Source: Serratia sp. FDAARGOS_506 (lineage in GTDB: Bacteria; Pseudomonadota; Gammaproteobacteria; Enterobacterales; Enterobacteriaceae). From it: a stretch of 64,000 nucleotides of DNA. The notes beneath the pieces are model-generated. The model ran no database searches, had not been told where the DNA came from, and saw nothing but the letters and a program-made list of their open reading frames with translations. Positions 5,252 to 19,997 of the stretch are shown here, in pieces. How positions within the stretch are numbered: the stretch's first letter is position 1; the number at the start of each line of letters is the position of its first letter. The DNA lies in the NCBI RefSeq assembly GCF_003812745.1, contig NZ_CP033831.1:682001-746000 (forward strand), in the 5' to 3' direction. The position numbers were made by a program, and so were the translations under genes.

Positions 5252-6892
5252 TTAATACAGCGTTTTCTGTGGCGGCCCGGCGAAAGTCAGCGGCCCTACC
5301 TGCTTCATGTCCACCTCGACCACCGACGGCCCTGGGTAGTTGATCGCTTCGGCCAGCACACCGTTGAACTGTGCCGCTGCGTCCACCTTCCAGGCTTTCA
5401 GCCCCATCGCTTCGGCGATCTGGGTGAACGCCGGCGTATGCAGCTCGTTGTAATATTGGCGCCCGGCGAAGTACTTGTCCTGAATGCCGCGCATCACGCC
5501 ATAACCGCCGTCGTTCATGATCAGCAGGGTGATATTCACCTGTTCTTGCGCCATGGTTGCCAACTCGCCCAGGCCCAGCGCCAGACCACCGTCGCCCACC
5601 AGCCCCACCACCTTACGCTGCGGGTTGGCGATTGCGGTGCCGATCGCCATCGGCAACCCCATACCAATGGCGCCGGCCAGCGAGTGAATGTTGCACAGCG
5701 GCGAGATCGCCCGGAACAGACGGCTGCCCCAGACGCTGCCGGAAACGGTGATATCGCGCACCAGCAATCCGTCCTGCGGCAGCGCGGCGTCGATGGCGTC
5801 ATTGAGTTTGGCGTATTCACCGGACTGCTGGCGCAGCGCACTCTCCGCCTGCCGCACCGCTCCCGCTATCTCAGCATCCCACTCGGCGTTGACCTTCTCG
5901 CCGGGGCTCAGCCGCGCCGCCAGCGCCGCGAGCAACGCCGCACAGTCGCCGTTGATCTGTTCATCGGCCAGGTAGTTGCGGTTGGCCGCCGCCGGATCGA
6001 TGTCAATCTGCACCAGCGGGCGCGGCAGCGGCAGCGTCCAGGTACGAGTTTCATTACTGCGCAGGCGCGAACCGGCCACCAGCGTCAGGTCACACTGCGT
6101 CAGGATCGCTTCGATGCTCGGTGAGTTATGGAACGCCCGCAGGCTGCGCGGATGGCTGTCCGGCAGAATGCCGCGCCCGTGGGTGCTGGAGATCACCGCC
6201 ACGCCGGCATCCGCCAGCTTGCGCACCGCGTCGCCGCAGCCCAAGGCGCCGCCGCCTAACCACAGCAGCGGACGCTTGGCCTGTTTCAGCCGCTGATGCA
6301 ACCGCTCCACCGCTGCGGCGTCCGCCTTCGGCAGCGGTGCCGGCGCCAATGGCTCGGTCAGTACTGAACGGGAAACCAGACTGCTTTGAATATCGATGGG
6401 GATCTCGACCGCCACCGGGCCGCAGGGCACGGTTTGCGCATCCAGGATCGCCCGTTGGATCACTGCCACCGCCTGCTCCGGCGAATTGACCCGGTAAGCG
6501 CGCTTGGAGCAGGCACGCAGAAAGCCGAGCTGATCGCGGGTTTCATGAATAAAACCGGCGTCGGCGTCCAGATACGCTTTTTCCACCTGGCCGGTGATAT
6601 GCAGCAGCGGCGTGTTGGCGTTGAGCGCCTCAATCATCGCCCCCACCGCGTTGCCGGCGCCGGCGCCGGTGCTGGTCAACGCTACGCCCAGGCCGGAGAA
6701 ACGCCCGTGCGCGTCGGCCATGGTGACCGCGCCTGCTTCACCGCGCGCCGGCACAAAGCGGATCTTATCGCGCTGCCCTACCGCATCGGCGATCGGCAGA
6801 TTATGAATCGAAATGATGCCGTACATCGCCGACACCGCGTACTGTTCCAAAGTCCGGGCTATCGCCTCGCCAACCGTGATTTTATCGCTCAT
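5252..6892 (-). CDS. Thiamine-diphosphate-dependent enzyme, acetolactate synthase/decarboxylase-like
   Basis: This 546-residue protein has the three-domain acetolactate synthase/benzoylformate decarboxylase fold. The activating glutamate lies in ARGEAGAV near residue 52. The C-terminal TPP/Mg motif begins GDGG and ends NDGGYG about 28 residues later, near residues 432-463. The residue before the glutamate, His in many acetolactate synthases, is Gly here. There is no regulatory small subunit gene nearby, which argues against branched-chain biosynthesis. It is the last gene of the catabolic cluster, 52 bases after the aldehyde dehydrogenase. A 2-oxoacid decarboxylase or lyase role is plausible, and the product aldehyde could feed that dehydrogenase; this is inference. 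Two ATGs are adjacent; I chose the second. Confidence 0.8.
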   Translation of the reverse strand: MSDKITVGEAIARTLEQYAVSAMYGIISIHNLPIADAVGQRDKIRFVPARGEAGAVTMADAHGRFSGLGVALTSTGAGAGNAVGAMIEALNANTPLLHITGQVEKAYLDADAGFIHETRDQLGFLRACSKRAYRVNSPEQAVAVIQRAILDAQTVPCGPVAVEIPIDIQSSLVSRSVLTEPLAPAPLPKADAAAVERLHQRLKQAKRPLLWLGGGALGCGDAVRKLADAGVAVISSTHGRGILPDSHPRSLRAFHNSPSIEAILTQCDLTLVAGSRLRSNETRTWTLPLPRPLVQIDIDPAAANRNYLADEQINGDCAALLAALAARLSPGEKVNAEWDAEIAGAVRQAESALRQQSGEYAKLNDAIDAALPQDGLLVRDITVSGSVWGSRLFRAISPLCNIHSLAGAIGMGLPMAIGTAIANPQRKVVGLVGDGGLALGLGELATMAQEQVNITLLIMNDGGYGVMRGIQDKYFAGRQYYNELHTPAFTQIAEAMGLKAWKVDAAAQFNGVLAEAINYPGPSVVEVDMKQVGPLTFAGPPQKTLY

Positions 6893-6944
6893 CATCTGCC
6901 TTCTTAGGGTATTCGTTATTGGGGTTATGCGTAGAGGTGTCGGC

Positions 6945-8414
6945 CTAGTCGCTCCAGCGGTTCACCTGATGGCCCAGCGCCAGATACACACTTTTCTGCT
7001 GCATGTAGGCCTTGATGCCGTTCAGGCCCTTTTCGCGGCCCAGCCCGCTTTCCTTGAAACCGCCGAACGGCGTGGAAATCGAGAACGTTTTGTAGGTGTT
7101 GACCCAGACGGTGCCGGTTTCCAGCCGCTCCGCCAGCGCCATCGCGCGAGGGAAGTCGCGGCTCCAGATGCCGGCTGCCAGGCCGTACACCGAGTCGTTG
7201 GCCTGTTCGATCAGCTGTTGCTCATCGTCAAACGGCAACGCCACCAGCACCGGGCCGAAGATCTCTTCCTGACAAACGCGGGCGTCATTGTTCAAACCTT
7301 CAATGATGGTCGGCAGGTAATAGCTGCCGCTCGCCAGTTGCGGATCGGCCGGTGCTTCGCCGCCGATGACCACCCGGCCGCCCTCTTGCCGCGCCAGCGC
7401 CACGTAGTCCGCCACGCTTTGCCTATGTTTGGCGCTGATCAGCGGGCCGAGATGCACGCCCGGCGTCAACGGGTTGCCGATGCGCAGCCCCGCTGTCAGT
7501 TCGGTCAAGCGCGCCAGCAGCGGCTGATACAGCGAACGATGCACGAACAGCCGCGAACCGGCGATGCACGCCTGGCCGGCAGAGCTGAAAATGCCGTAGC
7601 AGATGCCGCGCGCCGCCTGCTCCAGATCGGCGTCCTCCAGCACGATGGTCGGCGATTTTCCCCCCAGCTCCAGCGAGGTGGGGATCAACTTGTCGGCGGC
7701 GATGTGCGCCAAATGACGCCCGGTATTGGTCCCGCCGGTAAAAGAGATCTTTTTCACCAGCGGATGGCGCGCCAACGCCTCGCCGATCACCGAACCTTTG
7801 CCCGGCAACACGCTGAGCAGCCCGGCCGGCAGGCCCGCCTGTTCGAACAGCTCGGCCAGCTTCAACGCCATCAGCGGCGTGGCTTCGGCCGGTTTGAGTA
7901 CCACCGCGTTGCCCGCCGCCAGCGCCGGTGCCACCTTCTGCATTTCGCTGGCAATCGGCGAGTTCCACGGCGTAATGGCGGCGATCACCCCCATCGGTTG
8001 ATACTGGCTGAGGGTCATCACCTCGGCGCTGCGCGGGGTCGGCAGCTCACCTTCCAACACCTCGCAGGCGGCCGCAAAGTAGCGCGCGGTCGCCGCTGCG
8101 CTGGCCACCAGCCCACGGGTCTCCGCCAGCGGCTTACCGTTGTCGCGAGTTTGCAGCTCAGCCAGCTGTTCCTGCTGCGCCAGGATCAGATTGCTGACGC
8201 GGTAGAGGATCGAGGCGCGTTGGTGCGGCACCAGTCCACGCCATTCCGGCGCGCGCCAGGCGCGTTCCGCTGCTTCCACCGCCTCGTTCACGTCCTCGAC
8301 GTTCGCGGCGCGTAGCCGCGCGTTGACGCTGCCGTCGGCCGGGAATACCGAAGCCATCTCCTCGCCACGCCCTTCACGCCAGCGCCCGGCGACAAAAATA
8401 TTCAATCGTTCCAT
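6945..8414 (-). CDS. NAD(P)-dependent aldehyde dehydrogenase
   Basis: This 489-residue member of the aldehyde dehydrogenase superfamily oxidises an aldehyde to an acid. The conserved base lies in LELGGKSP near residue 250 and the nucleophile in GQACIAGSR near residue 282. The coenzyme loop FTGGTNTG and the C-terminal PFGGFKESG motif are also present. I chose the ATG at 8414, not 8438, because an AGGAG box sits seven bases upstream of it. It follows the aspartate-dehydrogenase-like gene by 16 bases, so co-transcription is likely. In an extradiol pathway such an enzyme could act on a ring-cleavage semialdehyde; the substrate is unknown. Confidence 0.9.
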   Translation of the reverse strand: MERLNIFVAGRWREGRGEEMASVFPADGSVNARLRAANVEDVNEAVEAAERAWRAPEWRGLVPHQRASILYRVSNLILAQQEQLAELQTRDNGKPLAETRGLVASAAATARYFAAACEVLEGELPTPRSAEVMTLSQYQPMGVIAAITPWNSPIASEMQKVAPALAAGNAVVLKPAEATPLMALKLAELFEQAGLPAGLLSVLPGKGSVIGEALARHPLVKKISFTGGTNTGRHLAHIAADKLIPTSLELGGKSPTIVLEDADLEQAARGICYGIFSSAGQACIAGSRLFVHRSLYQPLLARLTELTAGLRIGNPLTPGVHLGPLISAKHRQSVADYVALARQEGGRVVIGGEAPADPQLASGSYYLPTIIEGLNNDARVCQEEIFGPVLVALPFDDEQQLIEQANDSVYGLAAGIWSRDFPRAMALAERLETGTVWVNTYKTFSISTPFGGFKESGLGREKGLNGIKAYMQQKSVYLALGHQVNRWSD

Positions 8415-8430
8415 GCTCCGCTCCTGCCGT

Positions 8431-9225
8431 TCAGGCAATAAAACCGCCGTCCACCAGACGGCGGCAGGCTTGTACCGCGCTCAGCGCCGCCAGGGTTGAT
8501 GTTTTGGGATTGCTCGCCAGCGGGGTGCCGCTCAGCTCGATGTGAAATTCGCCAAAGTCGCCACACACCTGCAGGCGATGAGTATTACGCCGGGTGGCAG
8601 GATCGACCTGCAGGCGCACCCGGGTAGCGTCCATCCCCAGGCCGTTGAGCGCAATGGTGGCCGCCACGTTGGCATTGGCCGGGAACAAACGCGCCGCTTC
8701 GCGCGCCGAACCTTCAAAAAACACCTGCGCTTCACTCACCGCATCGAGGTCGATCAACTGTTCCGCCGGGCTGCCGCGCCAGCTGGCCGGGCTTTTGCTG
8801 GCCTGATAGGTCACGCTCTCCAACCCGCCTTCGCGTGCCGACGCCAGCCCGTCCATCCCCGCCACCGCACCGGACAGCACGATCAGCTGCCCGTGATGAC
8901 TGCGACAAACCTGCTGCAGCCGCTGTTGCAATGCGGCGTCCGCCAGCGCGCCGGTCGAGATCACCGCCAGCGGCCAACCGCGCTGCAGCACCGCTTCGCT
9001 GAACTCCACCACCGCCTGCTGACTGGCGCACTCCAGCACCAGATCCGGCCGCTGCGAACACTGATCTGGATGAGTCAGCGCCTTCACTCGCCCGCCAAAG
9101 GCCTCGGCGATCGCCGCATGATGAGCTGTGCGCGCCAGGATCCAGCCGACCTCCACGCCCTCCGGCAAACGGGCGATCACTTCCTTCGCCATCGCGCCAT
9201 AGCCAATCATCATGATCTTCTTCAT
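8431..9225 (-). CDS. Aspartate dehydrogenase-like protein (NadX family)
   Basis: This 264-residue protein has an N-terminal Rossmann fold (MIGYGAMAKEV at residues 6-16) and the C-terminal domain of the aspartate dehydrogenase family (PF01958), including the NVAATIALNGLG helix. Known family members interconvert L-aspartate and oxaloacetate or iminoaspartate with NAD(P)H. Placement between an SDR and an aldehyde dehydrogenase in an oxygenase cluster does not suggest NAD synthesis, and no nadA or nadC lies nearby. An amine- or imine-handling step in the catabolic pathway is possible, but this is inference. The gaps to its neighbours are 15 and 16 bases. Confidence 0.82.
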   Translation of the reverse strand: MKKIMMIGYGAMAKEVIARLPEGVEVGWILARTAHHAAIAEAFGGRVKALTHPDQCSQRPDLVLECASQQAVVEFSEAVLQRGWPLAVISTGALADAALQQRLQQVCRSHHGQLIVLSGAVAGMDGLASAREGGLESVTYQASKSPASWRGSPAEQLIDLDAVSEAQVFFEGSAREAARLFPANANVAATIALNGLGMDATRVRLQVDPATRRNTHRLQVCGDFGEFHIELSGTPLASNPKTSTLAALSAVQACRRLVDGGFIA

Positions 9226-9240
9226 CTTTCTCGGCCCCTG

Positions 9241-10035
9241 CTACACATGGCGGTTAAAGCCGCCGGAAACGTCCAACGCCGCCCCGGTGGTAAAGGAAGC
9301 CAGCGGCGAAGCGAGGAACAGCAGCGCCTGCGCCGGCTCCTGCGGTTTGCCCAGGCGTTTCATCGGGATGCCGCGACGTTCAGCGATCGCCGCCGTCCAC
9401 TGCTCCCAGCTTTGATCTTTATCGCTGCGATCGTCGAAACGGCGGCGCCACTGGCCCGATTCCACCATCCCCAACAAGATCGAATTAACGCGTATACCTT
9501 TGCCCACCAGCTCTTTCGACAACGTCAGCGTCATGTTGAGCAGTGCGGCACGCGCCGCCGAGGTGGCGATCATGTGTTCTTCCGGCTGCAGCGCCAGCAG
9601 CGAGTTCACGCAGGTGATCGACGCGATCTCCGAGCGTTCCAGCGCCGGTAAGAACGCCTGCACCGGATTGATCACGCCGAACAGCTTCAGCTCGGCTTCA
9701 TGCAGCCAGGCTTCGCGCGGCGTCTGGTCAAAATGGGCGACGAAGCCCTGACCGGCGTTGTTGATCAGCAGATCCACGCCGCCGAAATGCGCCGTCACCT
9801 GAGCGGCGAACTGCGTCACCTGCTGCGCGTCCAGTACGTCACAGCGCAGCGCCAGGATATCCGCCTGCGGAAACTCCGCGCGCAGGCTGGCCTCTGCGCC
9901 GGCCAGTTTGTCCGGATCGCGGCCGCAGAACGCCACCTTCGCCCCTTCGGCCAGCAGCAGCTTCAGGGTTTCGAAACCGATGCCCGACGAGCCGCCGGTC
10001 ACCACCGCCACCCGATTCTCAAGCTGAAAATTCAT
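9241..10035 (-). CDS. SDR family protein with altered catalytic Tyr/Lys
   Basis: This 264-residue protein has the classical SDR Rossmann start (TGGSSGIG near residue 14) and the NNAG motif near residue 93. Where classical enzymes have YxxxK, this one reads ATSAARAALL, so Thr and Arg replace the usual Tyr and Lys. The C-terminal glycine-rich substrate loop (DVSGGFNRH) is intact. It may therefore bind NAD(P) without classical oxidoreductase chemistry, or use other residues. I chose the ATG at 10035 because it overlaps the stop of the hydrolase gene by ATGA, giving translational coupling. The reading frame is clean and I see no frameshift. Confidence 0.85.
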   Translation of the reverse strand: MNFQLENRVAVVTGGSSGIGFETLKLLLAEGAKVAFCGRDPDKLAGAEASLRAEFPQADILALRCDVLDAQQVTQFAAQVTAHFGGVDLLINNAGQGFVAHFDQTPREAWLHEAELKLFGVINPVQAFLPALERSEIASITCVNSLLALQPEEHMIATSAARAALLNMTLTLSKELVGKGIRVNSILLGMVESGQWRRRFDDRSDKDQSWEQWTAAIAERRGIPMKRLGKPQEPAQALLFLASPLASFTTGAALDVSGGFNRHV

Positions 10036-10850
10036 CGTTGGATTGCTCCCGTAAAGTCCCGCAAATAGCGGTTGAAACACGCCGGCGCATCGAGGTAGCT
10101 GGCATGACCGGCGGCGGCGATCAGACGCAATGTCGCATCCTGCTCTCGCGCCAGCTCGGCCGCATTCTCCGGCGGCGTAATGCGATCCTGTTCACCGCAC
10201 CACACCTCCAGCGGGCCGCGATAGCGCGCCAGATAACGGCTGACATCATCATTGGCCAGCATCCAGGCGGCACTCAGAAAACCGTCGGGATCGAGCTGCT
10301 GCATGCCGTTGCGCACCCAGGCGATATCCTGAGGATCCGCCCCTTCGCGCAGCAATGCCGCCGCCCGCTGCTCGCCGTAGCCCACCGGCCCCAACGTTTC
10401 TATCATCTGTTGGCGCTGGCTATACACCTGCCGACGTTTTTCTTCCGGCGCCGTGGCATAGCCCTGCGCCGGATCCGCCAACACCAATCCACACAGCCCA
10501 TCAGGATTGCCGGCGGCATAGGCGCTGCCAATCAGCGCCCCCAGCGAATGGCCGACGATCAGCGGCTGCGCCAGCTGCAGCTCATCAATCAGCGCAGCCA
10601 ACGCCGCCGCATAACCGGCGGCATCGGCCTGCGGATCCGCCAACGGCAGGCTGCCGCCGTACCCCGGTGCGTCCCACGCCAACAGACGGTGGCCATCCGT
10701 CAGGCCGTTATCGTTGAACTGCTTGATCCACGAGGCCGATCCGGAGCTGATGCCGTGCAGCAACACCACCGGCCGCCCCTGCCCGGCCTCGCGCCAGCTC
10801 AGGGTGTACGCCCCGCAGCGCGCTCGTTGGAGTTGCGCCAGGCCGTTCAT
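10032..10850 (-). CDS. Alpha/beta hydrolase
   Basis: This 272-residue alpha/beta-fold hydrolase has an oxyanion loop (LLHGISSGS) and a nucleophile elbow GHSLGAL near residue 102. An acid loop (CGEQDRITPP) and the C-terminal His (AAGHASYLD) complete a catalytic triad. Family and context match enzymes that cut carbon-carbon bonds in meta-cleavage products (MhpC/BphD type), though esterases look alike. The frame is open further upstream inside the cupin gene. I chose the ATG at 10850, which overlaps the cupin stop as TGATG, and it overlaps the next SDR by ATGA. These overlaps indicate one operon. Confidence 0.87.
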   Translation of the reverse strand: MNGLAQLQRARCGAYTLSWREAGQGRPVVLLHGISSGSASWIKQFNDNGLTDGHRLLAWDAPGYGGSLPLADPQADAAGYAAALAALIDELQLAQPLIVGHSLGALIGSAYAAGNPDGLCGLVLADPAQGYATAPEEKRRQVYSQRQQMIETLGPVGYGEQRAAALLREGADPQDIAWVRNGMQQLDPDGFLSAAWMLANDDVSRYLARYRGPLEVWCGEQDRITPPENAAELAREQDATLRLIAAAGHASYLDAPACFNRYLRDFTGAIQR

Positions 10851-11374
10851 CAGTTGCGCTTCACTTTGGACAGCGGGTGATCCGCCGGATAAGTCGGGAT
10901 CTCCGGCTTGGCCGTGCCGAGCATCACGCACATCAGCGCCTCTTCCTCGCCGTGGTTGAACAGGCCGCGATACACCCCCGCCGGCACCGAGATCAGATCG
11001 CGCTCTTTCAGCCTGGTCTCGTAATACTCGTCCCCGTCCTGAATCATCAGCGTGATGCTGCCTTTCAGCATGAAGAACACTTCTTCGACGTCGTCGTGCA
11101 GGTGCAGTGGCCCCTCGCACTTCGACGGCAGCACCATGGTGGAAAAGGTGAAATTGCCCGCCGGAATGGTGTTGGCGTCGCTGGCCACGCCGGTAGCGCC
11201 GGTGCCGATGTAGCGCATCTGCGCGCGGCGATATTTCGGATCGAAGTCGGCCTGGAATTTCAGCGCGTTCCAGTCGTATTTACGGCCTTCGAAACGGGCG
11301 ATGCGCGACTCCACCCAATTTTCCATCGACAGATCCTGCGGCTTGACGCCGGCTTTGTTCTCAACCTGAGACAT
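10850..11374 (-). CDS. Cupin domain protein
   Basis: This 174-residue protein carries one cupin beta-barrel. The metal motif is HLHDDVEEVFFML near residues 93-105, and a second motif with His occurs in LFNHGEEEALM. Two His plus Glu suggest a bound metal. The N-terminal 50 residues contain a basic, aromatic-rich stretch with no domain I recognise. Cupins in catabolic operons can be dioxygenases, isomerases or sensors, so the role is open. I chose the ATG at 11374 over 11461 because an AGGAG box lies just upstream. A 168-base gap separates it from the MFS gene, enough for a separate promoter. Confidence 0.85.
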   Translation of the reverse strand: MSQVENKAGVKPQDLSMENWVESRIARFEGRKYDWNALKFQADFDPKYRRAQMRYIGTGATGVASDANTIPAGNFTFSTMVLPSKCEGPLHLHDDVEEVFFMLKGSITLMIQDGDEYYETRLKERDLISVPAGVYRGLFNHGEEEALMCVMLGTAKPEIPTYPADHPLSKVKRN

Positions 11375-11542
11375 GTTGTCACTCCTCTGTTGAATCAAAT
11401 GGTTATCCCCTTCGTCTTTCACGCTGTGGCGCTGTTGGCTGCATTCGTTCGCACCAGTCACTTACCGCAGTAAGCTCCTGGAGACTCACGAACTTGCCGC
11501 CTAGCCACAGCATGAAATCCATTGGGCTTAGCAATTGTTAAT

Positions 11543-12799
11543 TCAGTACTTTCTCAGTAACGGCAGCAGAATGAGGCAGCCGACGAAAGCCATTACCACC
11601 AGGAACAGCAGGCCGTTATCCATATTGCCGGTGGCGGCGATCAACGCCCCCATCAGCACCGGCGCCAGCGCGCCAGCAAAATTGCCCAACCCGTTGAAGA
11701 TGCCGCCGGCGGTAGCGCTGACCTTGCTGCTGGTCGCCTTCGCCAACAGCGCGAAAATATTCGGCGCGCCGGCGCCCCACATAAAGGTGCTGAAGGCCAT
11801 GGCGGCGATCACGCTGTAGGTGCCCTGCAGGTGCAGCACCACCGCCAGACCCAGGCCGGCGCCGCACAGCGACAAGAAACAGGCCAGCGCGCGCCGATCC
11901 AGCTTGTCCGACAGCCAGGCGCCCAACACTTCGCCGAGCAGCATGGCGATGAACGGCAACGAGGAGAGGTAACCGGCATGCTCCAGATGAATGCCTTTCC
12001 CCTTGATCAGGTAGCTCGGCAGCCAGCCGTTCATGCCCCACAGGTAGGTCAGGAAAGCGATGTTAAACAGGCAGATCATCCAAAAGTGCGGGCTGCGCAA
12101 CAGCTCGCGGCGATGCTGTTTGCGTTCGGAAACCGCCGGCTTGGTTGCCGCCGCCGGGCGTGCGACATTCAGGTGGCGCATGCCGAACAGCACCAGCAAC
12201 ATCACCGGCAACGTCAGAAACGCCATAAAGAAGAAGGTGGCCTGCCAGTCGAAGGTATTGAGGATGTACAGAGTGACCGGGAAGCCAAGCGCGGCGCCCA
12301 GCGGCGTGCCGAGCAACCACAGCATGGTGGCGCGCGCCTGCAGCTGCGGCGGGAAGGCCTGACGAATAATGGCGTAGGCCATCGGCAACAGCGGCCCTTC
12401 GGCGATGCCGAGCAGAATGCGCAGCGTCATCATGGCGTGATAAGAACGCACCATCCCCATCAACACCATCAGCACGCCCCACACCACCATCATGCCAATC
12501 AATACTTTGACCGGATTAAGCCGATCGCCGATGCCGCTGAGCAGCATCGAGGAAATGCCGTAGGAGAACAGAAACGCGCTCATCAGCAAGCCCAATCGCG
12601 CCGGGTCAAAACCGATCCCTAACGCCTGCTGGAACTCACTATCGGAAAACAGCGCCGCGATGCTGATCTTGTCGAAAAACGCCAGCAGCACGCAGGCAAA
12701 CAGCGCGATCGGCACCGACCAGCGCACCCGCTGCTGCGGATTTTCAGCAACGGCTTCCCCCGCCCGTCCAGCGCGGGCGTCAATGTCTTGCGTAGTCAT
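11543..12799 (-). CDS. MFS transporter, anion:cation symporter-like
   Basis: This 418-residue protein has about 12 membrane segments, with the acidic FFDKISIA stretch in helix 1 and an RILLGIAEGPLLP stretch in helix 4. That pattern fits the anion:cation symporter family, which imports aromatic and sugar acids. The ATG at 12799 has a CGGGAG site six bases upstream; the longer open frame overlaps the reductase gene and is unlikely. It lies inside the catabolic cluster, so uptake of the pathway substrate is the natural guess. A second transporter of the same family type lies divergent at 18756. Confidence 0.88.
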   Translation of the reverse strand: MTTQDIDARAGRAGEAVAENPQQRVRWSVPIALFACVLLAFFDKISIAALFSDSEFQQALGIGFDPARLGLLMSAFLFSYGISSMLLSGIGDRLNPVKVLIGMMVVWGVLMVLMGMVRSYHAMMTLRILLGIAEGPLLPMAYAIIRQAFPPQLQARATMLWLLGTPLGAALGFPVTLYILNTFDWQATFFFMAFLTLPVMLLVLFGMRHLNVARPAAATKPAVSERKQHRRELLRSPHFWMICLFNIAFLTYLWGMNGWLPSYLIKGKGIHLEHAGYLSSLPFIAMLLGEVLGAWLSDKLDRRALACFLSLCGAGLGLAVVLHLQGTYSVIAAMAFSTFMWGAGAPNIFALLAKATSSKVSATAGGIFNGLGNFAGALAPVLMGALIAATGNMDNGLLFLVVMAFVGCLILLPLLRKY

Positions 12800-12822
12800 A
12801 AAACGCTCCCGAGGTTCGGGCG

Positions 12823-14034
12823 TTATTTCAACGCCATCAAAGAAAACTCCGCATCCGCCAGCTGCTGCGGATCCAGCACCCGGCCGCTCGCCAGCCAACG
12901 CTTGCCGAGCTTGATAGTGCGCGCATCGTTGAACGCCACCATCTGCACCAGTTGCCGATCGGCGTTCAGCGTGAAGTACACCTGCGACTGCGGCGTATGG
13001 CGCACTACATGGTGCACGCCGCCGCTCGGCACGCCGAGGATCTGAATATTGGTGTCGTATTGATCCGACCAAAGCCAGGCCACGTCGTCATACGGGGCGG
13101 CGAAGGCATCGAGCATCGCGCAGGCGGTGCTGATGGCCTGATTTTGCGCGTAGGCCCAGGACTGCAGGCACAGGCCGAGCGTCGGGTGGCGCGCCACGTC
13201 GCCGGCGGCGAAGATCGCCGGATGGCTGGTGCGCCCCTGGCCGTCGACCACAATGCCGGACTCGATCGCCAGCCCGGCACTGCGCGCCAGTGCGAGATTC
13301 AACTCGACGCCGATCCCCACCACCACCAGATCGAATGCCTGTGGATCGCTGACTTCGCTGCCGATCCAGGCGACGCCATCGCGATCTTCCAGCGAGATCT
13401 CGCCGCAGCCGCAGAGCACCGTGACGCCCTGCTGACGATGCAGTTCGAGCAACGCCTGTGAGACGTCGGCGCCAACGCTGCGCATGCACAGCGCAGGCTG
13501 GCGTTCGAACACCGTCACCTCGGTGCCGAGACGGCGCGCGGAAGCGGCGATCTCCAGCCCGATCCAACCACCGCCGACGATCGCCAGGCGACGACAGCCC
13601 TGCAGACCCTGCCGCAACCGGGCCGCATCGTCCCAGGAACGCAGCGTCATCACGCGCGGGTGCTGCGCCCAGGCGGCGCCCGGCAAACGCGGCCGCCCGC
13701 CGGTGGCGATCAGCAACTGCTCGAACTGCAACCGTTGCCCGTCGCTGAGCGTGACGATTTGCTGTTCTGCATCGATGGACTCGGCGCGCAGCGGGCGACG
13801 CCAGTCGATATTCAGCTCCGCCACCGTCTGTTCGCTGAACAGCCGGCTGAGGGGGGCTGCGGCATCCAGAAGAGCCGCTTTCGACAGCGGCGGCCGCTCG
13901 TAAAAATCGTAGGGCTCATCGCTGACCACTGTCAGCCGGCCACTGTAACCCCGATCGCGCAGCGTCTTGGCCGCCCAGCCGCCGGCCTGGCCGCCGCCGA
14001 CGATGACGATGCCCGCATGTTCCGGCCGGTTCAT
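12823..14034 (-). CDS. FAD-dependent ferredoxin reductase of a Rieske oxygenase system
   Basis: This 403-residue flavoprotein has two dinucleotide-binding motifs: FAD in IVIVGGGQAGG near residue 9 and NAD(P) in LAIVGGGWIGLE near residue 150. A third FAD motif follows in the ATGGRPRLPG and FAAGDVARH regions. The layout matches the reductases that pass electrons from NADH to Rieske ferredoxins (HcaD/BphA4 type). The ferredoxin and oxygenase lie upstream in the same cluster, giving a complete three-part chain. The start overlaps the extradiol dioxygenase stop by ATGA. Confidence 0.9.
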   Translation of the reverse strand: MNRPEHAGIVIVGGGQAGGWAAKTLRDRGYSGRLTVVSDEPYDFYERPPLSKAALLDAAAPLSRLFSEQTVAELNIDWRRPLRAESIDAEQQIVTLSDGQRLQFEQLLIATGGRPRLPGAAWAQHPRVMTLRSWDDAARLRQGLQGCRRLAIVGGGWIGLEIAASARRLGTEVTVFERQPALCMRSVGADVSQALLELHRQQGVTVLCGCGEISLEDRDGVAWIGSEVSDPQAFDLVVVGIGVELNLALARSAGLAIESGIVVDGQGRTSHPAIFAAGDVARHPTLGLCLQSWAYAQNQAISTACAMLDAFAAPYDDVAWLWSDQYDTNIQILGVPSGGVHHVVRHTPQSQVYFTLNADRQLVQMVAFNDARTIKLGKRWLASGRVLDPQQLADAEFSLMALK

Positions 14035-14972
14035 AACGCCTCCGCCTTTTTATGCTGACGGCGCGTGTCGTGATCGATGCCGCCCTCTACCGCCCATTCG
14101 GTGAAGGAAACCAACGAATGCTCCAGCTCGCGCGGCTGCCAGTTTTCCGTCAGATAGTCGTCGTTGGTGTAGTACTCGAACGCGCCGCCGGTCGGGCTGT
14201 TGACGTACCAGAAATAGGCCGAGGAGATCGGATGGCGGCCGGGGCCGATAAAGGTGCTCCACTTTTCTTTGTTCATGGCGATGCCGCCGCCGATCACTTC
14301 GTGGATATCGCGCACGGTGAATGCCACGTGGTTCAGGCCGCGTGGGCGGTTCGGCAGCTTCAGCAGGAACAGATTATGGTGGCCGCCGCGCGCCTGGGTA
14401 CGCAGGAAGACGGCGCGATCGATATAGCGATCGGAAACCTGGAAATCCAACAGCTCGCGATAGAAACGCTCGGTCGCCGCCAGGTCTTCGACGAAGAACA
14501 CCACGTGGCCGATGTTGATCGGCTGCGCCTGCGAATAGACCGGGCTGGGTTGATCGATGCGGCGCACGTCGCCCCATTGGTTGATCGGCGTGACCGGCAC
14601 CTCGACCGCCTGCTGGCGGCTAACGACGAAGCGCAGCGTCATGCCGTTGGGATCGAGGCATTCCAGCTCTTCTCCCACCTGACGAAAGCCGGGCATCAAC
14701 GCCAAACGCGGCTGCAGGCGCGCCAGATCGGCGGGCGAGCCCACGCCCCAGGTCATACGGCGCAGGGTAGAACCGCCCTCAAACGCCGCAGGCAACGCCG
14801 CGCTTTGCAACGGGTGCAGGACAACCCGCGCCCCGCTCAGGGTAGTGAATTCGCGCTGCGGTTCGCCCCAATGTTGCGTGGCGGGTTGCAGGCCGAAGTC
14901 TTGCATGAATTTTTCGCAGGTTGGTAGATCTTCGACGCCAAATTCCAGTTTTTCGATTCCGATTACGCTCAT
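14031..14972 (-). CDS. Type I extradiol ring-cleavage dioxygenase (VOC family)
   Basis: This 313-residue protein has two VOC halves. The C-terminal half keeps the full iron triad of type I extradiol enzymes: His156 in NIGHVVFF, His215 in LNHVAF and Glu266 in GGAFEYY. The second-shell His (GGHHNLF near 200) and the GRH...Y...P.G segment near 245-262 are also present. It should cleave a catechol-like ring next to the two hydroxyls. The N-terminal half lacks these ligands, as usual. The start has a GAGG box. A 109-base gap to the IclR gene upstream could hold a promoter, but I see no clear one. Confidence 0.9.
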   Translation of the reverse strand: MSVIGIEKLEFGVEDLPTCEKFMQDFGLQPATQHWGEPQREFTTLSGARVVLHPLQSAALPAAFEGGSTLRRMTWGVGSPADLARLQPRLALMPGFRQVGEELECLDPNGMTLRFVVSRQQAVEVPVTPINQWGDVRRIDQPSPVYSQAQPINIGHVVFFVEDLAATERFYRELLDFQVSDRYIDRAVFLRTQARGGHHNLFLLKLPNRPRGLNHVAFTVRDIHEVIGGGIAMNKEKWSTFIGPGRHPISSAYFWYVNSPTGGAFEYYTNDDYLTENWQPRELEHSLVSFTEWAVEGGIDHDTRRQHKKAEAL

Positions 14973-15081
14973 TGTTCAGCCTCACGTTCTCGCTGCATAC
15001 GGTTTTCAGGCATGATCGAACCCCGGCCCCTGTTTGCTGCGGGCCTTATCCCTGCCTGAGTAAAAGAGTCGGTCCTGTGGG

Positions 15082-15876
15082 TTAGCCGACGTTGGCCTGC
15101 GGCGGCGCGCCGAGGAAGCCGGAAATTTTCTCCGCCGCGTCGCGCACTTCCATGCGCAGCCGCTCGCGATCCGTTTTCGGGATCTCATCGGACGGCACCA
15201 TGATGCTGACCACCGCCTCGACCCGTTGCTCGCGGTTGAAGATCGGATAGACGATCGAAGAGATGCCGTGGCGGAAGAACGATTCGCCAATCACATAGCC
15301 GCGCGCCTTGTCTTGCTGCACCATTTGCCACAGCGTTTCGCGATCCGCCGGGGTGCCCGGCGCATTGCCCGGCAGCTGCGCGTCCGGATAAAGCTGTTCG
15401 AACTCGCTGCGGGTGGCGCTGGTCAACAGCATGCGCCCCAGAGAGGTTTGGTGCACCGGCAAACGGGTGCCGACGCTGACCTGATTGATCTGTGAACCGG
15501 CGGCACTGACGCGAGCGATGTAGATCACGTCTCGCCCATCGCGGATCGCCAGATGACTGCTGCACTGGCTGCGATCGCGCAGCTGCTCGATCACCGGCTG
15601 GCCGGCCTGCGCCACGTCCAGCGACGCGATATATTCGAAGCCGAGACGCAGCACCTTGATACCGAGCGCAAACGTGTTGGTGCGCGGATTGCGCTCCAGG
15701 AAGCCCAGGTGCTCGAGCGTCTGCACCACGCGATAAGCGGTGGCCTTCGGCATATCGACCAGGCGATGCAACTCGGCGAAGGTCATTTCCTTATGCTGCT
15801 CGCCAAACGCCAGCAGCAACTGCAATCCGCGATCCAGTCCCGGGATCAGATATTTACATGCTTGCTCGTCCGCCAT
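15082..15876 (-). CDS. IclR family transcriptional regulator
   Basis: This 264-residue protein has an N-terminal winged helix (about residues 12-75, with recognition helix DMPKATAYRVVQTL). A C-terminal effector-binding domain follows (about 85-258, with the VGTRLPVHQTSLGRMLL segment). IclR proteins bind as dimers or tetramers to short palindromes and often answer to aromatic acids. The gene lies inside the operon, between the SDR and the extradiol dioxygenase, and faces the same way. It would therefore be co-induced with its presumed targets. The operator candidate at 18380-18403 upstream of the first gene is a likely target. An AGGAG site precedes the start. Confidence 0.92.
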   Translation of the reverse strand: MADEQACKYLIPGLDRGLQLLLAFGEQHKEMTFAELHRLVDMPKATAYRVVQTLEHLGFLERNPRTNTFALGIKVLRLGFEYIASLDVAQAGQPVIEQLRDRSQCSSHLAIRDGRDVIYIARVSAAGSQINQVSVGTRLPVHQTSLGRMLLTSATRSEFEQLYPDAQLPGNAPGTPADRETLWQMVQQDKARGYVIGESFFRHGISSIVYPIFNREQRVEAVVSIMVPSDEIPKTDRERLRMEVRDAAEKISGFLGAPPQANVG

Positions 15877-15912
15877 CTCTCGCTCCTGCGCTGTGCGCCA
15901 GCCCTGCGGGCC

Positions 15913-16668
15913 TCAGTTGAATACGAAGCCGCCGTTGACCGGCAGCAGTTGGCCGGTGACGAAATCCGCCAGCGACGACAGCAGATAAAGCACCGTACCG
16001 TTCACATCCTCAGGATGCTGCGCCCCGGCCAGCGAGCGCCCCTGCTCGTACAGCTGATGGCGCTCGGCAGGCACATACTCGGTGGCTTCCACCCGCGTCA
16101 GGCCTGGTGCGATGGCGTTGACGCAGATCCCCTGCGGGCCCAGCTCGCGCGCCATCGATCGGGTCATCGCAATCAACGCGCCTTTGCTGGCGACATAGGC
16201 CATCAGGCGCGGCGCGCCCCACAGCGCGGTGTCCGACGCCACGTTGACGATCTTGGCGTGCGGATTGCGCGCCAGCAGCGGCACCGCCGCCTGACTTACC
16301 AGCCAGGTGCCGCGCACGTTGACCTGCATCACCCGATCCCACAGATCGATATCGTATTCCATCATGGTTTTGCCGCCGACGCCGGTCGCCAGCGCCGCGT
16401 TGTTCACCAGGCCGTCGATCCCGCCGCCAGCGGCGATCTTCTCGAACGCCGAACGGATCGAATCCGGTGACGCCAGATCGATCGTCTGCGTTTCCACCTG
16501 GGTGCCCTGCTCGCGCAGCGCGGCGCCACTCGCCGCCAGTTCATCCGCCAAAATGTCGCACATCACTACCTGCGCGCCGGCAGCGGCGATGGCGGCGGCG
16601 AAGCTGTAGCCCAGACCACGCGCCGCACCGGTGACCACGATACGTTTACCGTTCAGCAGGCCGTTCAC
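15913..16668 (-). CDS. SDR family oxidoreductase, possible cis-dihydrodiol dehydrogenase
   Basis: This 251-residue classical SDR has TGAARGLG near residue 13, NNAAL near 90, and an intact YVASK catalytic motif near 158-162. It starts with GTG, overlapping the oxygenase stop as GTGA, so the two are translationally coupled. Ring-hydroxylating oxygenases make cis-dihydrodiols that need such a dehydrogenase to give a catechol, and the neighbouring extradiol enzyme would then use that catechol. This order of steps is inference from context; the SDR family alone does not fix the substrate. Confidence 0.88.
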   Translation of the reverse strand: MNGLLNGKRIVVTGAARGLGYSFAAAIAAAGAQVVMCDILADELAASGAALREQGTQVETQTIDLASPDSIRSAFEKIAAGGGIDGLVNNAALATGVGGKTMMEYDIDLWDRVMQVNVRGTWLVSQAAVPLLARNPHAKIVNVASDTALWGAPRLMAYVASKGALIAMTRSMARELGPQGICVNAIAPGLTRVEATEYVPAERHQLYEQGRSLAGAQHPEDVNGTVLYLLSSLADFVTGQLLPVNGGFVFN

Positions 16669-17708
16669 TGCGCCGCCTCCCGCTCACGCAACGTCGCCAG
16701 CTGTTTCTGCGCCTCTTTCTGCATCATGCGGCGCAGGCGCGAAAGACCAACGTCGTGCTGGTACAGATATTCCTGGCCGCGGGCGTTAGGCGCCATGTTC
16801 TCAAGCACGATGCGATCCTGCTCGAGCACGTCCCAATGCAATGATTCCAGGCGATTACGGTACATGAAGCGCCACATGTCGCGCTGCCAGTCTTTGACCT
16901 TACGGATGCGCCAGAAGAATACCCGGCAGTGATCCTTGTCTTCCGGCACCACCATGCCGATGATCCAGAAGTGGCCACCTGGCCCGAAGCGCTTCTTGTA
17001 TGGGATCGACAGGCGCATCCAATACGCACCGCTGCTGCCGAACTCCACCCAGTCGAAGTTGACGCCGATCTGGCCGTTCTTCTTGAAGATAAACCCGTTG
17101 TCGGTCGGCTCCAGCCCCATATCCGCCTTGCGATCCCCCTCCGCCATCGAGTGTGAGGAAGAATGCAGGTAGGTGCCGTGCATCGGATCCATCACGTTTT
17201 CCAATGCGTATTGGTAGTTGCAGTTCCAGCTGGCGGTGCACAGGAAGTTGCTGTACGAAGCTTCGTCCGCCAGCTCTTGCGGGAAAGTCAGCTCCGCCGG
17301 CGCTTCATCCGCCGTCACGCCGAAATAGAGGAACACCGCGCCATAGGCTTCTTTGGCAGGGTAAGAACGCAGGCATTTTTGCCCCACCAGCGGACAACGA
17401 TCCACTGCAGGCACGTCTTTCACCGTACCGTCGCCGCCGACTTCCACCCCGTGATACCAACAGGCGATGCGATCGCCGAGGTTCCACCCCATGGAAAGCC
17501 GCGCGCCTCGGTGCGGGCAGCGGTCTTCCAGCGCGTGGATCTGGCCTTCACCGTCGCGCCACACCACAATTTGCTGTTCCAGACGGGTGATGCCGACCGG
17601 GTTGTTGCCCACTTCCCAGCTGGCCAGCACCGGATACCACATGCCACGCAATCCTTGGTCAAGATAGTCCTGCAGGCTCTGTTCAGAGGATGTTGTGTTT
17701 GCTGTCAT
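16665..17708 (-). CDS. Rieske non-heme iron oxygenase, alpha (catalytic) subunit
   Basis: This 347-residue protein has an N-terminal Rieske domain with the 2Fe-2S ligands Cys64, His66, Cys83 and His86 (CPH, then CWYH after 16 residues). The mononuclear iron site is seen in NVMDPMHGTYLH, with Asp174, His177 and His182. It is shorter than the roughly 450-residue naphthalene or biphenyl type and closer to the phthalate/vanillate group, which has no beta subunit. No beta-subunit gene is seen. It has a ferredoxin and a separate reductase in the same cluster. The substrate is unknown. Confidence 0.92.
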   Translation of the reverse strand: MTANTTSSEQSLQDYLDQGLRGMWYPVLASWEVGNNPVGITRLEQQIVVWRDGEGQIHALEDRCPHRGARLSMGWNLGDRIACWYHGVEVGGDGTVKDVPAVDRCPLVGQKCLRSYPAKEAYGAVFLYFGVTADEAPAELTFPQELADEASYSNFLCTASWNCNYQYALENVMDPMHGTYLHSSSHSMAEGDRKADMGLEPTDNGFIFKKNGQIGVNFDWVEFGSSGAYWMRLSIPYKKRFGPGGHFWIIGMVVPEDKDHCRVFFWRIRKVKDWQRDMWRFMYRNRLESLHWDVLEQDRIVLENMAPNARGQEYLYQHDVGLSRLRRMMQKEAQKQLATLREREAAQ

Positions 17709-17728
17709 TGTCTTCTCCCGGATGTGGC

Positions 17729-18037
17729 TCAGAAACCGTTAACGTGAAGGAATTCGCGGAACGTCGCCTCATTCCACGGCTGGCCGCTACGATCGAACAG
17801 ACGGCGCTGATTCAACGCGCTGACGATCTGGTCCAGCTCTTCCGCCCCCTGCTCGAAGATCGTTTCCAGCGCCGCCACCAGGGCGGTTTCGAAACCGTCC
17901 GGCACACGGGCGCGGTTTTGCCAGATGACATTGCGGAACTGGCCCGGCTGATGGATTTGACCGTTGCCGCCTTCGCGGGCCGGCGTCACCTGTTGGGTGT
18001 CCGGCAGCCAGGGATTGAAATCGGTGATGTGCTGCAT
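17729..18037 (-). CDS. Small helix-turn-helix-like protein in the oxygenase operon
   Basis: This 102-residue protein contains a tract predicted as helical (about residues 45-98, with VAALETIFEQGAEELDQIVSAL), resembling the recombinase-like helix-turn-helix domain. It ends with WNEATFREFL, which looks like a recognition helix. The ATG at 18037 has a strong GGAGG site, and the gene lies two bases after the ferredoxin stop and 20 before the oxygenase. There is no catalytic or integrase domain, so it is not a recombinase. It sits where two-subunit oxygenases often carry the beta subunit, but it shows no likeness to one. It may be a small regulator or an accessory subunit. Confidence 0.75.
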   Translation of the reverse strand: MQHITDFNPWLPDTQQVTPAREGGNGQIHQPGQFRNVIWQNRARVPDGFETALVAALETIFEQGAEELDQIVSALNQRRLFDRSGQPWNEATFREFLHVNGF

Positions 18038-18039
18038 GA

Positions 18040-18357
18040 TTACTCCTCCGCGATAAAGGTGATCTGGATTTGGTTGTCGACCACCCGGGTGGGATAGGTT
18101 TGCAGATCGCGGCCGCCCGGCTCGCGCAGGCACTGGCCGGTGCGCACGTCAAACAGCGCTTCGTGCAGCGGGCACTCAACCTTGCCGTCGTCTACAAACC
18201 CCTGGCTGAGCAAGGCATAAGCATGCGGGCAGACGTCTTCCAGCGCGTAGTAGTTACCATCGAGCAGGTACACCCCGATCTCTTTTCCTTCCACTTTACC
18301 GGAGAAAGGAAAATCTTCTTTCACCTGAGACACTTCGCACACATTCTTCCAGCTCAT
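18040..18357 (-). CDS. Rieske-type ferredoxin of the oxygenase system
   Basis: This 105-residue soluble electron carrier has the Rieske 2Fe-2S ligands Cys43, His45, Cys62 and His65 (CPH, 16 residues, then CPLH). It resembles the ferredoxins HcaC and BphA3, which link an NADH-dependent flavoprotein to the terminal oxygenase. A GAGGA ribosome site lies eight bases before the ATG. It is the first gene of the cluster; the promoter and a palindromic operator lie directly upstream. A nitrite reductase small-subunit-like protein is the main alternative, made unlikely by the context. Confidence 0.92.
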   Translation of the reverse strand: MSWKNVCEVSQVKEDFPFSGKVEGKEIGVYLLDGNYYALEDVCPHAYALLSQGFVDDGKVECPLHEALFDVRTGQCLREPGGRDLQTYPTRVVDNQIQITFIAEE

Positions 18358-18379
18358 TGCTTTTGTCCTCTATCTGATT

Positions 18380-18403
18380 GTTTCATATATGAAACTCAGT
18401 TTC
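18380..18403. promoter_or_regulatory. Overlapping palindromes, candidate IclR-type operator
   Basis: GTTTCATATATGAAAC at 18380-18395 is a perfect 16-bp palindrome. Its right half-site GAAAC is reused in a second inverted repeat, GAAAC-TCA-GTTTC (18391-18403). The TTTCAT/ATGAAA halves resemble sites of IclR-family members such as KdgR. The element lies between the predicted promoter and the ferredoxin start, where a bound repressor would block transcription. Assignment to the IclR protein of this operon is inference. Confidence 0.65.
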
Positions 18404-18418
18404 TTATTTAATACAGCC

Positions 18419-18446
18419 ACTATAAGTCTGGCGAAACTTTCGTCAA
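18419..18446 (-). promoter_or_regulatory. Predicted sigma-70 promoter of the catabolic operon
   Basis: On the minus strand TTGACG (18446-18441) and TATAGT (18424-18419) are separated by 16 bases. Transcription would start near 18412, just before the palindromic operator. The spacer contains a further small inverted repeat, CGAAA-C-TTTCG. Confidence 0.65.
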
Positions 18447-18755
18447 GCGAGCGGAACGGCAAATGTTAATGAAAGGTTGTTTAAAAATGACAAATGCGGG
18501 AAAGATCACGAAATCATGCACCGATATGAAAAACCTATATCAGTTGTGCGCTCTCCCACTAATTTATGGCAAAAAATGCGTTGATTCCGACGACGCATTG
18601 CGCGTAAAAGTGTTTTCTCACTGTCTTTCACACCCTATTTGATAACAATAAATTTACATTAATCAGCCTCATCCCCCGCGTTTGCGCGAAATGGCATCCG
18701 CGGGTGAGTTTACTGCTGCCTGAATTCGTCAACCGCTCGCATTGAGGAACGCAAC
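18447..18755. promoter_or_regulatory. Divergent intergenic region with inverted repeats
   Basis: This AT-richer stretch lies between the catabolic operon promoter and the divergent MFS gene. It holds an inverted repeat AATGCGT-N11-ACGCATT (18575-18599) and a weaker GATAT-N9-ATATC (18523-18541). No ORF is convincing. The plus-strand promoter for the MFS gene must lie here, but I cannot place it with confidence. Confidence 0.4.
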
Positions 18756-19997
18756 GTGCAACAACGTCAACGCTGGTTTGGGGTGATCGCCCTGCTGTTT
18801 CTGATCGTTATCGCCTATGCGGATCGGGTCAATATCGCCGTGATGTTGGTCAACCCCGACTTCCTGCAACACTTCCAACTCGGCGGCGACCGCGCCCACC
18901 AGGGCACGCTGATGACGGTATTTTTGCTCGGCTACGGTCTGTCCGCCATGTTGCTGACGCCGTTTCTGGAAACGCTGATGGGTTATCGCCGCGCGCTGAC
19001 GCTGAGCGTGGTGCTATGGGCGCTGCTCACCGCCGCCTCGCCGCTGGCGGGATCGCTGATGCTGCTGTGCGTGGTGCGCGCGCTGCTTGGCGTCAGCGAA
19101 GGGCCGCTGTTCTCGCTGAAGACCATGTACATCAGCGATCATTTCGCCGCCGACGAGCGTGGCAAGCCCAACGCGGTCAGCGCGCTGGGCGTTTCGTTGG
19201 GACTGGTGCTCGGCTTTCCGCTGGTGAGTTTCCTGATGGCGCACTTCGGCTGGGCGATGTCGTTTCACCTGGTGGCGCTGCTCAACCTGCTGCTGGGGCT
19301 GGCGCTGGTGCGGCTGTTCGTTCATCCCCTCGCCCTATCTTCAGCCACGCGCCCCGCCGATCCGCAACCGGTGCTAAGCCGCGTCTGGCACACCTTTGCG
19401 CTGGCCTGGCGCACACCGATGCTCGGCTGGATCCTGCTGATCGAGATCGCCACGCTCAGCTATCTGTGGGGCTCCAGCTCCTGGCTGCCGGCCTATCTGA
19501 CCGATGAAAAGGGGTTTTCCATCAAACAGATGGGCTGGATGGCCGCGCTGCCTTTCATCGTTAGCATCGCCTCCAAATACCTCGGCGGCGTGTTGCTCGA
19601 TCGTATCCGCCCTTATCAAGCGCCGCTGATCTTCGTCTGCGGCGGCGCAGCGACCGCGCTGTGTATCTATGGCGTGATGAACAGCCATCAGCTTGGCTGG
19701 ATCGCCTTCTTCCTGCTGGCGGCCAATGCCTGTTGGGGCGCGCAGGGCGCGGCGATCCCTACCCTACTGCAACATTATGCGCGGCCGGAGGCGGTCGGCA
19801 GCGCCTATGGGCTGATCAACGGCATCGGCAATCTGTTCTCGGCGTTTGTGCCGATGGCGATGGGTATGGTGATGGCCAGCCAGGGTAAGGTGTCTTCAGG
19901 CTTTGCGGTGCTGATCGCCTCGCAGTTGCTGACGCTGCTGGCAGGCGGTGCACTGTTTGGCCGCATGTTGCTGGCGCGGCAGGTGAAGCGGGCATAA
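18756..19997 (+). CDS. MFS transporter divergent from the catabolic operon
   Basis: This 413-residue transporter has about 12 membrane segments. YADRVNIAVML in helix 1 and RALLGVSEGPLFSLK in helix 4 are typical of the anion:cation symporter family. The start is GTG at 18756, supported by a GAGGAA ribosome site seven bases upstream. It is paralogous in character to the MFS protein at 11543-12799, so the locus carries two uptake candidates. It shares the regulatory region with the catabolic operon and is likely controlled with it. The substrate is unknown. Confidence 0.88.
   Translation: MQQRQRWFGVIALLFLIVIAYADRVNIAVMLVNPDFLQHFQLGGDRAHQGTLMTVFLLGYGLSAMLLTPFLETLMGYRRALTLSVVLWALLTAASPLAGSLMLLCVVRALLGVSEGPLFSLKTMYISDHFAADERGKPNAVSALGVSLGLVLGFPLVSFLMAHFGWAMSFHLVALLNLLLGLALVRLFVHPLALSSATRPADPQPVLSRVWHTFALAWRTPMLGWILLIEIATLSYLWGSSSWLPAYLTDEKGFSIKQMGWMAALPFIVSIASKYLGGVLLDRIRPYQAPLIFVCGGAATALCIYGVMNSHQLGWIAFFLLAANACWGAQGAAIPTLLQHYARPEAVGSAYGLINGIGNLFSAFVPMAMGMVMASQGKVSSGFAVLIASQLLTLLAGGALFGRMLLARQVKRA

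Follow-up and report, generated by a model that had tools for sequence, protein, structure and literature searches.

In the quinoline branch of tryptophan catabolism, 7,8-dihydroxykynurenate is cleaved and the resulting 2-oxo acid side chain is reduced, decarboxylated to an aldehyde and oxidized, as drawn in the KEGG tryptophan map. It is the one described pathway known to us with such a sequence of steps, and to our knowledge the enzymes EC 1.14.99.2, EC 1.3.1.18 and EC 1.13.11.10 are known only by their activity. Kynurenic acid, which derives from tryptophan and acts on the brain and the immune system, arises by transamination of kynurenine. Serratia marcescens 2CC-1 is said to degrade quinaldate via kynurenate, for which the listed open-access matches gave no confirmation. 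We describe here a locus of Serratia sp. FDAARGOS_506 (genome of 4.86 Mb in two contigs) whose operon very probably serves the import and degradation of kynurenic acid, and perhaps of xanthurenic acid, by this branch. The locus comprises 15 genes at positions 5252–19997 of a 64,000-nucleotide stretch (hereafter, the window; contig NZ_CP033831.1, positions 682,001–746,000), between loiP and speB. The initial annotation of the region had matched the gene set to no named pathway, a conclusion now superseded by the specific match to the kynurenate branch.

The kynurenate pathway of Pseudomonas extracts is known from enzyme work (Hayaishi, Taniuchi and others, 1961–63). The steps predicted here would follow the same course: dihydroxylation of the ring, oxidation of the dihydrodiol by a dehydrogenase and extradiol cleavage, after which the side chain would be reduced and decarboxylated and the aldehyde oxidized. 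A passage in PMC5610271 notes, citing Taniuchi and Hayaishi 1963, that a route of degradation had been suggested in Pseudomonas fluorescens; an excerpt of PMC10543884 places 5-(2'-carboxyethyl)-4,6-dihydroxypicolinate among the metabolites of tryptophan metabolism; and, going by the title of a 1961 reference in PMC11354673, the nitrogen of kynurenate ends in glutamate. Published abstracts name NMDA, nicotinic, GPR35 and aryl-hydrocarbon receptors as targets of kynurenic acid. No assignment of kynurenate-degradation genes was found among the matches listed from the open-access literature; subscription papers mostly lie outside it, and a published assignment could exist.

Parts of the locus resemble other described systems. 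The anthranilate branch, formed by tryptophan dioxygenase (TDO), KynB and kynureninase, shares the conversion of tryptophan to kynurenine and differs in kynureninase, which none of the 15 genes encodes. In comparison to the Hca- and And-type dioxygenases, the ferredoxin resembles HcaC and AndAb and the reductase HcaD and AndAa, but the oxygenase, rox, is of the VanA_C type with no gene for a beta subunit. The alpha-only Rieske enzymes carbazole 1,9a-dioxygenase and 2-oxoquinoline 8-monooxygenase share 19–23% identity with rox and act on other substrates, and the fold alone shows no function. Homoprotocatechuate 2,3-dioxygenase (HpaD/HPCD) is the nearest PDB sequence to the extradiol enzyme voc, the match spanning residues 135–275; voc scores 76 bits against the 321-bit cut-off for HpaD, and its proposed substrate is a fused heterocycle.

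Gene content and proposed route

Every gene of the 15-gene set claimed in the initial annotation was found at its coordinates, with concordant domain calls. Fourteen lie on the minus strand, separated by gaps of −4 to +168 bases (10 of 13 below 40), and one encodes a divergent MFS transporter on the plus strand. The flanks are loiP (NF052399, over cut-off) and speB. The features are given below, with the 14 minus-strand genes in their order from the promoter end.

18040–18357, minus: fdx, Rieske-type ferredoxin, first gene of the operon (PF00355; nearest NCBIfam models AndAb and HcaC, below cut-off; C43, H45, C62 and H65 in 86/86)
17729–18037, minus: hth62, HTH_62 ('recombinase-like HTH') protein of 102 amino acids, between fdx and rox (PF20552, 5e-21)
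16665–17708, minus: rox, Rieske oxygenase alpha subunit, proposed kynurenate 7,8-dioxygenase (PF00355 and PF19112 VanA_C)
15913–16668, minus: sdr1, classical SDR, proposed dihydrodiol dehydrogenase (PF13561/PF00106)
15082–15876, minus: iclR, IclR-family regulator (PF09339 and PF01614)
14031–14972, minus: voc, type I extradiol dioxygenase, proposed 8,8a ring cleavage (PF00903)
12823–14034, minus: fadred, ferredoxin reductase (PF07992 and PF14759 Reductase_C; HcaD/AndAa-like, below cut-offs)
11543–12799, minus: mfs1, MFS transporter, proposed importer (PF07690; start at 12799 picked from the reading frame)
10850–11374, minus: cupin, candidate late-step enzyme (PF07883; H91, H93, E97 and E98 in 81/81)
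10032–10850, minus: abh, alpha/beta hydrolase, candidate lactam or C–C hydrolase (PF00561/PF12697; PcaD-like, below cut-off)
9241–10035, minus: sdr2, non-classical SDR (NF005468, 437 bits versus a cut-off of 266; the model names no function)
8431–9225, minus: aspdh, L-aspartate dehydrogenase-like (NadX-like) enzyme (PF01958; NF009828, 402 bits versus a cut-off of 177)
6945–8414, minus: aldh, aldehyde dehydrogenase, proposed formylethyl oxidation (PF00171)
5252–6895, minus: tpp, thiamine-diphosphate (TPP) enzyme, proposed 2-oxo acid decarboxylase (three TPP_enzyme domains; NF005470, 824 bits versus a cut-off of 495; the model names no function)
18756–19997, plus: mfs2, divergent MFS transporter (PF07690)
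18380–18395, no strand: perfect palindrome GTTTCATATATGAAAC, candidate IclR operator (exact match in the window)
18419–18446, minus: promoter-like site TTGACG-16-TATAGT, 61 bases upstream of the fdx start (10/12 consensus positions)

Domain searches agree with the earlier calls of two MFS proteins, an IclR regulator, an aldehyde dehydrogenase, an aspartate-dehydrogenase-like protein, a cupin and a TPP enzyme. The oxygenase electron chain of ferredoxin, reductase and Rieske alpha subunit is complete, as described, with its family domains and Rieske ligands intact. The HTH_62 protein and the non-classical character of the second SDR are additions to the first reading.

Active-site residues were counted over aligned sequences that include the window's own and exclude those below a set identity or 85% coverage. 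The rox ligands C64, H66, C83 and H86, together with D174, H177 and H182, are invariant in 90/90 sequences. The SDR that had been called intact is sdr1, with S145, Y158 and K162 in 87/87, and the extradiol enzyme has retained all of its claimed iron ligands: H156, H215 and E266, which we take from HPCD numbering to be the two histidines and one carboxylate, occur in 83/83. Similarly, E249 and C283 of aldh are present in 82/82. The triad S102, D222 and H249 of abh is intact in 80/80, and with a PcaD-like score below cut-off this protein stays a candidate for the C–C hydrolase previously claimed. Thr158 and Arg162 of sdr2 replace the catalytic Tyr and Lys in 82/82, a departure from the classical Tyr-x3-Lys pattern that suggests chemistry different from that of classical SDRs. 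The score of aspdh against the curated L-aspartate dehydrogenase model predicts this activity, and the residue check of tpp is thinner, only 11 sequences being complete enough for alignment.

The structural model of rox is nearest to alpha-only Rieske oxygenases, and the PF00848 catalytic domain and beta subunit that mark alpha3beta3 dioxygenases are found in none of the 15 genes. A match to hth62 is present in 82/82 cluster loci, and one locus (L100, hth62 at 9678–9986) has kept only fdx–hth62–rox; instead of binding DNA, the protein may serve as a subunit, accessory or assembly factor of the oxygenase. Another Rieske oxygenase gene, located about 8.5 kb before the window start (G000:C2:672890-673462), is the only one in the genome to match PF00848.

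In the proposed route, the MFS proteins would import kynurenate and the Rieske chain fadred–fdx–rox would convert it to the 7,8-cis-dihydrodiol, from which sdr1 would form 7,8-dihydroxykynurenate. Cutting of the 8,8a bond by voc would then yield 5-(3-carboxy-3-oxopropenyl)-4,6-dihydroxypicolinate. A reductase, with sdr2 and the AspDH-like enzyme as candidates, would saturate the side chain, the TPP enzyme would decarboxylate the 2-oxo acid to a formylethyl compound, and the aldehyde dehydrogenase would oxidize this to the carboxyethyl compound. The cupin, the hydrolase and the remaining dehydrogenase might finally open the pyridone, with nitrogen recovered as an amino acid.

The earlier interpretation holds for ring hydroxylation, dihydrodiol oxidation and meta-cleavage, which are supported at the family level; the gene set can now be matched to a pathway, and an insertion relative to E. 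coli is, as discussed below, the less likely direction. Both a 2-oxo acid decarboxylase family and an aldehyde dehydrogenase family are present, from which we infer the side-chain reaction. No hydratase, aldolase or acylating acetaldehyde dehydrogenase was found among the 15 genes, the remainder of the genome not having been searched for them, so that the canonical meta-cleavage lower pathway is not encoded within this set. The kynurenate assignment is favoured because a TPP decarboxylase and an aldehyde dehydrogenase with no hydratase–aldolase pair fit the side-chain steps of the quinoline branch and not the usual meta-cleavage routes. It is favoured also because the genomic evidence set out in the next section, namely TDO adjacency, the pattern of kynureninase absence, an aminotransferase near TDO and a shared palindrome, points the same way. 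Gene content, intact active sites, conservation, the palindrome and the genomic links to kynurenine formation were established here; the individual reactions, the identity of the substrate and the action of IclR on the palindrome are inferences.

The palindrome and genomic links to kynurenine formation

IclR would regulate the operon through the GTTTCATATATGAAAC palindrome. A palindrome of the form TTTCA...TGAAA lies no more than 200 bases upstream of fdx in 69/82 loci, and the exact 16-mer occurs 66 times over the 82 related loci. Specificity was assessed in 186 fetched loci of at least 4.5 kb (3,566,204 bases, some species being represented twice): allowing at most one mismatch, 86 matches fall in the 600 bases that precede fdx, compared with 3 at other places. 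Of these three, two stop 16 bases short of the TDO start codon; they belong to G825 and G961, which are genomes of another enterobacterial genus and have the operon as well, preceded by the exact palindrome. The remaining one precedes abh in a Burkholderiales cluster (L120). Loci of Kluyvera and Klebsiella oxytoca (L052, L059 and L099) have additional near-copies on the upstream side of the operon copy. A promoter scan returned 5 sites versus 3.5 in shuffles, which is not above chance overall.

The closest physical link is seen in a genome of the Burkholderiales family f11 (G791, locus L155), where tpp, aspdh, aldh, voc, an FAD monooxygenase, an aldolase-family gene, rox and a VanB-like reductase are followed on the opposite strand by TDO (TIGR03036) and arylformamidase (TIGR03035), both over cut-off. 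The distance from rox to arylformamidase is 3.7 kb and the reductase–TDO gap is 2 bases. In a second genome (G237), a TDO–kynureninase pair lies about 9 kb from an abh–voc–sdr2–tpp–aspdh block and 26 kb from rox. Within the window's own family, TDO is present in 6/29 oxygenase carriers (three genera) versus 2/169 non-carriers (p = 1.4e-4). The window's own genome has a TDO over the curated cut-off and a best kynureninase match of 19 bits against a cut-off of 246; its link to kynurenine formation is only this co-occurrence with TDO, the closer links being those of relatives. In one genome of the window's genus (L212:7748-12984), TDO adjoins aldolase-like and acylating-dehydrogenase-like genes, identified by reading only, which possibly form a biosynthetic cluster.

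A sample of 200 genomes of family f11 contains the oxygenase in 21, TDO in 129 and kynureninase in 127 (match at E <= 0.001; 123 over the curated cut-off). Carriers account for 7 of the 9 genomes with TDO but no kynureninase match, versus 11 of the 120 with both (Fisher p = 9.7e-6, a value that overstates independence because these genomes are related). With the curated kynureninase cut-off the proportions become 7/12 and 11/117 (p = 1.7e-4). The seven kynureninase-less carriers span six genera. TDO alone is weakly associated with the oxygenase (18/21 carriers versus 111/179 others, p = 0.03). Two non-carriers with TDO and no kynureninase match were kept in the counts, G719 (93% complete, 6% contamination) and G773 (weak TDO match). 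Cells that form kynurenine and have no kynureninase need another outlet.

TDO neighbourhoods of about 11–20 kb were compared for the seven kynureninase-less carriers, 11 other TDO-positive carriers, 20 non-carriers (taken from the top of the TDO list with carriers skipped, together with G667 and G733, where TDO is near a contig start) and G719. A class I/II aromatic aminotransferase gene is near TDO in 4/7, 1/11, 0/20 and 0/1 of these, respectively (4/7 versus 0/20, Fisher p = 0.002), and lies within 2.5 kb of TDO in the four kynureninase-less carriers. The two aminotransferases scanned, from G792 and G723, score 575 and 571 bits against the 377-bit cut-off of the aromatic amino acid transaminase model NF006719. 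Kynureninase is near TDO in 0/7, 8/11, 18/20 and 0/1 of the same groups. The lone aminotransferase case among the 11 other carriers stands beside the second TDO copy of G225. That genome (L134:7413-16750) carries TDO in two copies some 8 kb apart: kynureninase and arylformamidase are close to the first, and the aromatic aminotransferase adjoins the second, as if each served one branch.

Counter-evidence and alternative readings

Several observations weigh against the assignment to kynurenate. Adjacency of TDO and the oxygenase is seen in one genome and loosely in a second; the first has a kynureninase elsewhere in its genome, and in the second kynureninase adjoins the TDO near the cluster. In the other TDO-positive carriers checked, the two genes are on separate contigs or at least about a megabase apart. 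TDO is absent from 3/21 f11 carriers and from 23/29 carriers of the window's family, which would therefore depend on external kynurenate. In four of the six TDO-positive carriers of this family (L135, L210, L212 and L213, the window's own genome included), no palindrome with up to three mismatches was found at TDO, and the TDO neighbours seem unlike a kynurenine operon. The relatedness of the f11 genomes counts on the same side, as does the status of GTTTCATATATGAAAC, which is a candidate operator of the IclR protein.

Among other explanations, the one that fares best would make xanthurenate or another hydroxylated or sulfated kynurenate the primary substrate and kynurenate a secondary one, with sulfatase and FAD monooxygenase variants in Halomonas and alphaproteobacteria handling conjugates. 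Sulfatase, FAD monooxygenase and TRAP-transporter-like genes do lie near rox in L101, L103, L125, L126 and L127, but none of the 10 sulfatase matches is in an enterobacterial locus (10 kb on each side of rox), and we regard this account as rather unlikely. The Rieske/sdr1 loci concerned (L101:13492-19269, L103 and L125–L127) carry a PF00884 sulfatase and a salicylate-hydroxylase-like FAD monooxygenase, which might act on sulfated kynurenate or xanthurenate.

Another bicyclic or N-heterocyclic acid, such as quinaldate, a plant phenolic or an indole acid, might be degraded instead, the TDO links then reflecting a shared regulator or chance. Domains assigned at the family level leave the substrate unfixed, the solved oxygenases closest to rox have carbazole, dicamba, guaiacol and phthalates as substrates, and most enterobacterial carriers have no TDO, as given above. 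Against this, the adjacency, the absence of kynureninase, the aminotransferase near TDO and the shared palindrome all point one way, and such a substrate appears improbable. That fdx to fadred oxidize an aromatic and cupin to tpp handle an unrelated amino- or oxo-acid is very improbable: the halves are parted by mfs1 and a 168-base gap, the second half is unmatched in the fetched stretch of Halomonas L101 and L103 (which have rox, sdr1, fadred, iclR and voc), L100 retains its three genes alone and P. aeruginosa PA3504–PA3511 presumably resembles the second half alone, but the halves occur together across Enterobacterales, Halomonas L102, Caballeronia L130 and several alphaproteobacteria, and voc adjoins aldh in Burkholderiales.

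Returning to kynurenate as the substrate, we propose with moderate confidence a wider account. The gene set for the orphan kynurenate enzymes of the 1960s would be a single IclR-controlled operon, old and widespread in gut and plant Enterobacterales, that can replace kynureninase and would let gut bacteria such as Klebsiella and Enterobacter remove host kynurenic acid. It would include an undescribed opening of the pyridone by cupin, hydrolase and an SDR without Tyr/Lys, with nitrogen recovered by the AspDH-like enzyme. If the operon does consume kynurenic acid, many common gut and plant bacteria can lower its level, rox could be a single-gene metagenome marker of kynurenate consumption, and sequences would be at hand for EC 1.14.99.2, EC 1.3.1.18 and EC 1.13.11.10, making a 60-year-old pathway directly testable.

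Distribution and probable age of the locus

The locus is real and more widespread than could be seen from the window. A contig scan gave 491 confirmed relatives, of which the best 80, together with two Klebsiella records, were mapped as the 82 cluster loci. One conserved order runs through Serratia, Yersinia, Budvicia, Klebsiella, Enterobacter, Kluyvera, Raoultella, Erwinia, Pantoea and Providencia; it is identical in most of the 82 loci and far from chance. The closest relatives are in Serratia marcescens (99% oxygenase identity), and 26/30 genomes of the genus have the oxygenase, the four without it having genomes of 1.5–3.6 Mb. In a phylum-wide sample the oxygenase is found at E <= 1e-80 in 15/398 genomes. 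Burkholderiales, Halomonas and alphaproteobacteria have rearranged versions of the cluster; in Caballeronia (L130) the same genes stand in a different order.

The initial annotation had taken loiP and speB to be adjacent in E. coli and the locus to be an insertion relative to that genome. Across 5,426 E. coli genomes, none has a place covering 80% of the region; 1,780 records show some match, and the 10 matches listed all fall on speB or ycaL. A single E. coli chromosome was examined at this point, and it has one DUF1266 gene between loiP and speB. Insertion is the less likely direction: of the 76 loci that exceed 18 kb, 60 have speB within the fetched stretch, and rox, sdr1, voc, cupin, sdr2 and aldh diverge in step with speB (Pearson 0.80–0.85, 58–62 loci). 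Because speB is retained nearby and the operon diverges in parallel with it, an old locus absent from E. coli would fit better than a recent island.

In Klebsiella the order and site are as in Serratia. Each of the two Klebsiella records has an extra gene adjoining loiP, which is oprD in L002 and encodes an IS5-like transposase in L003. Several genes of L002 are annotated as fragments. Two enterobacterial oxygenase genes appear to be damaged, one with a partial match to residues 1–244 (G961:C1:4016030-4016761) and the other with an internal stop (G965:C1:3763875-3764876); the trait may therefore be decaying in places.

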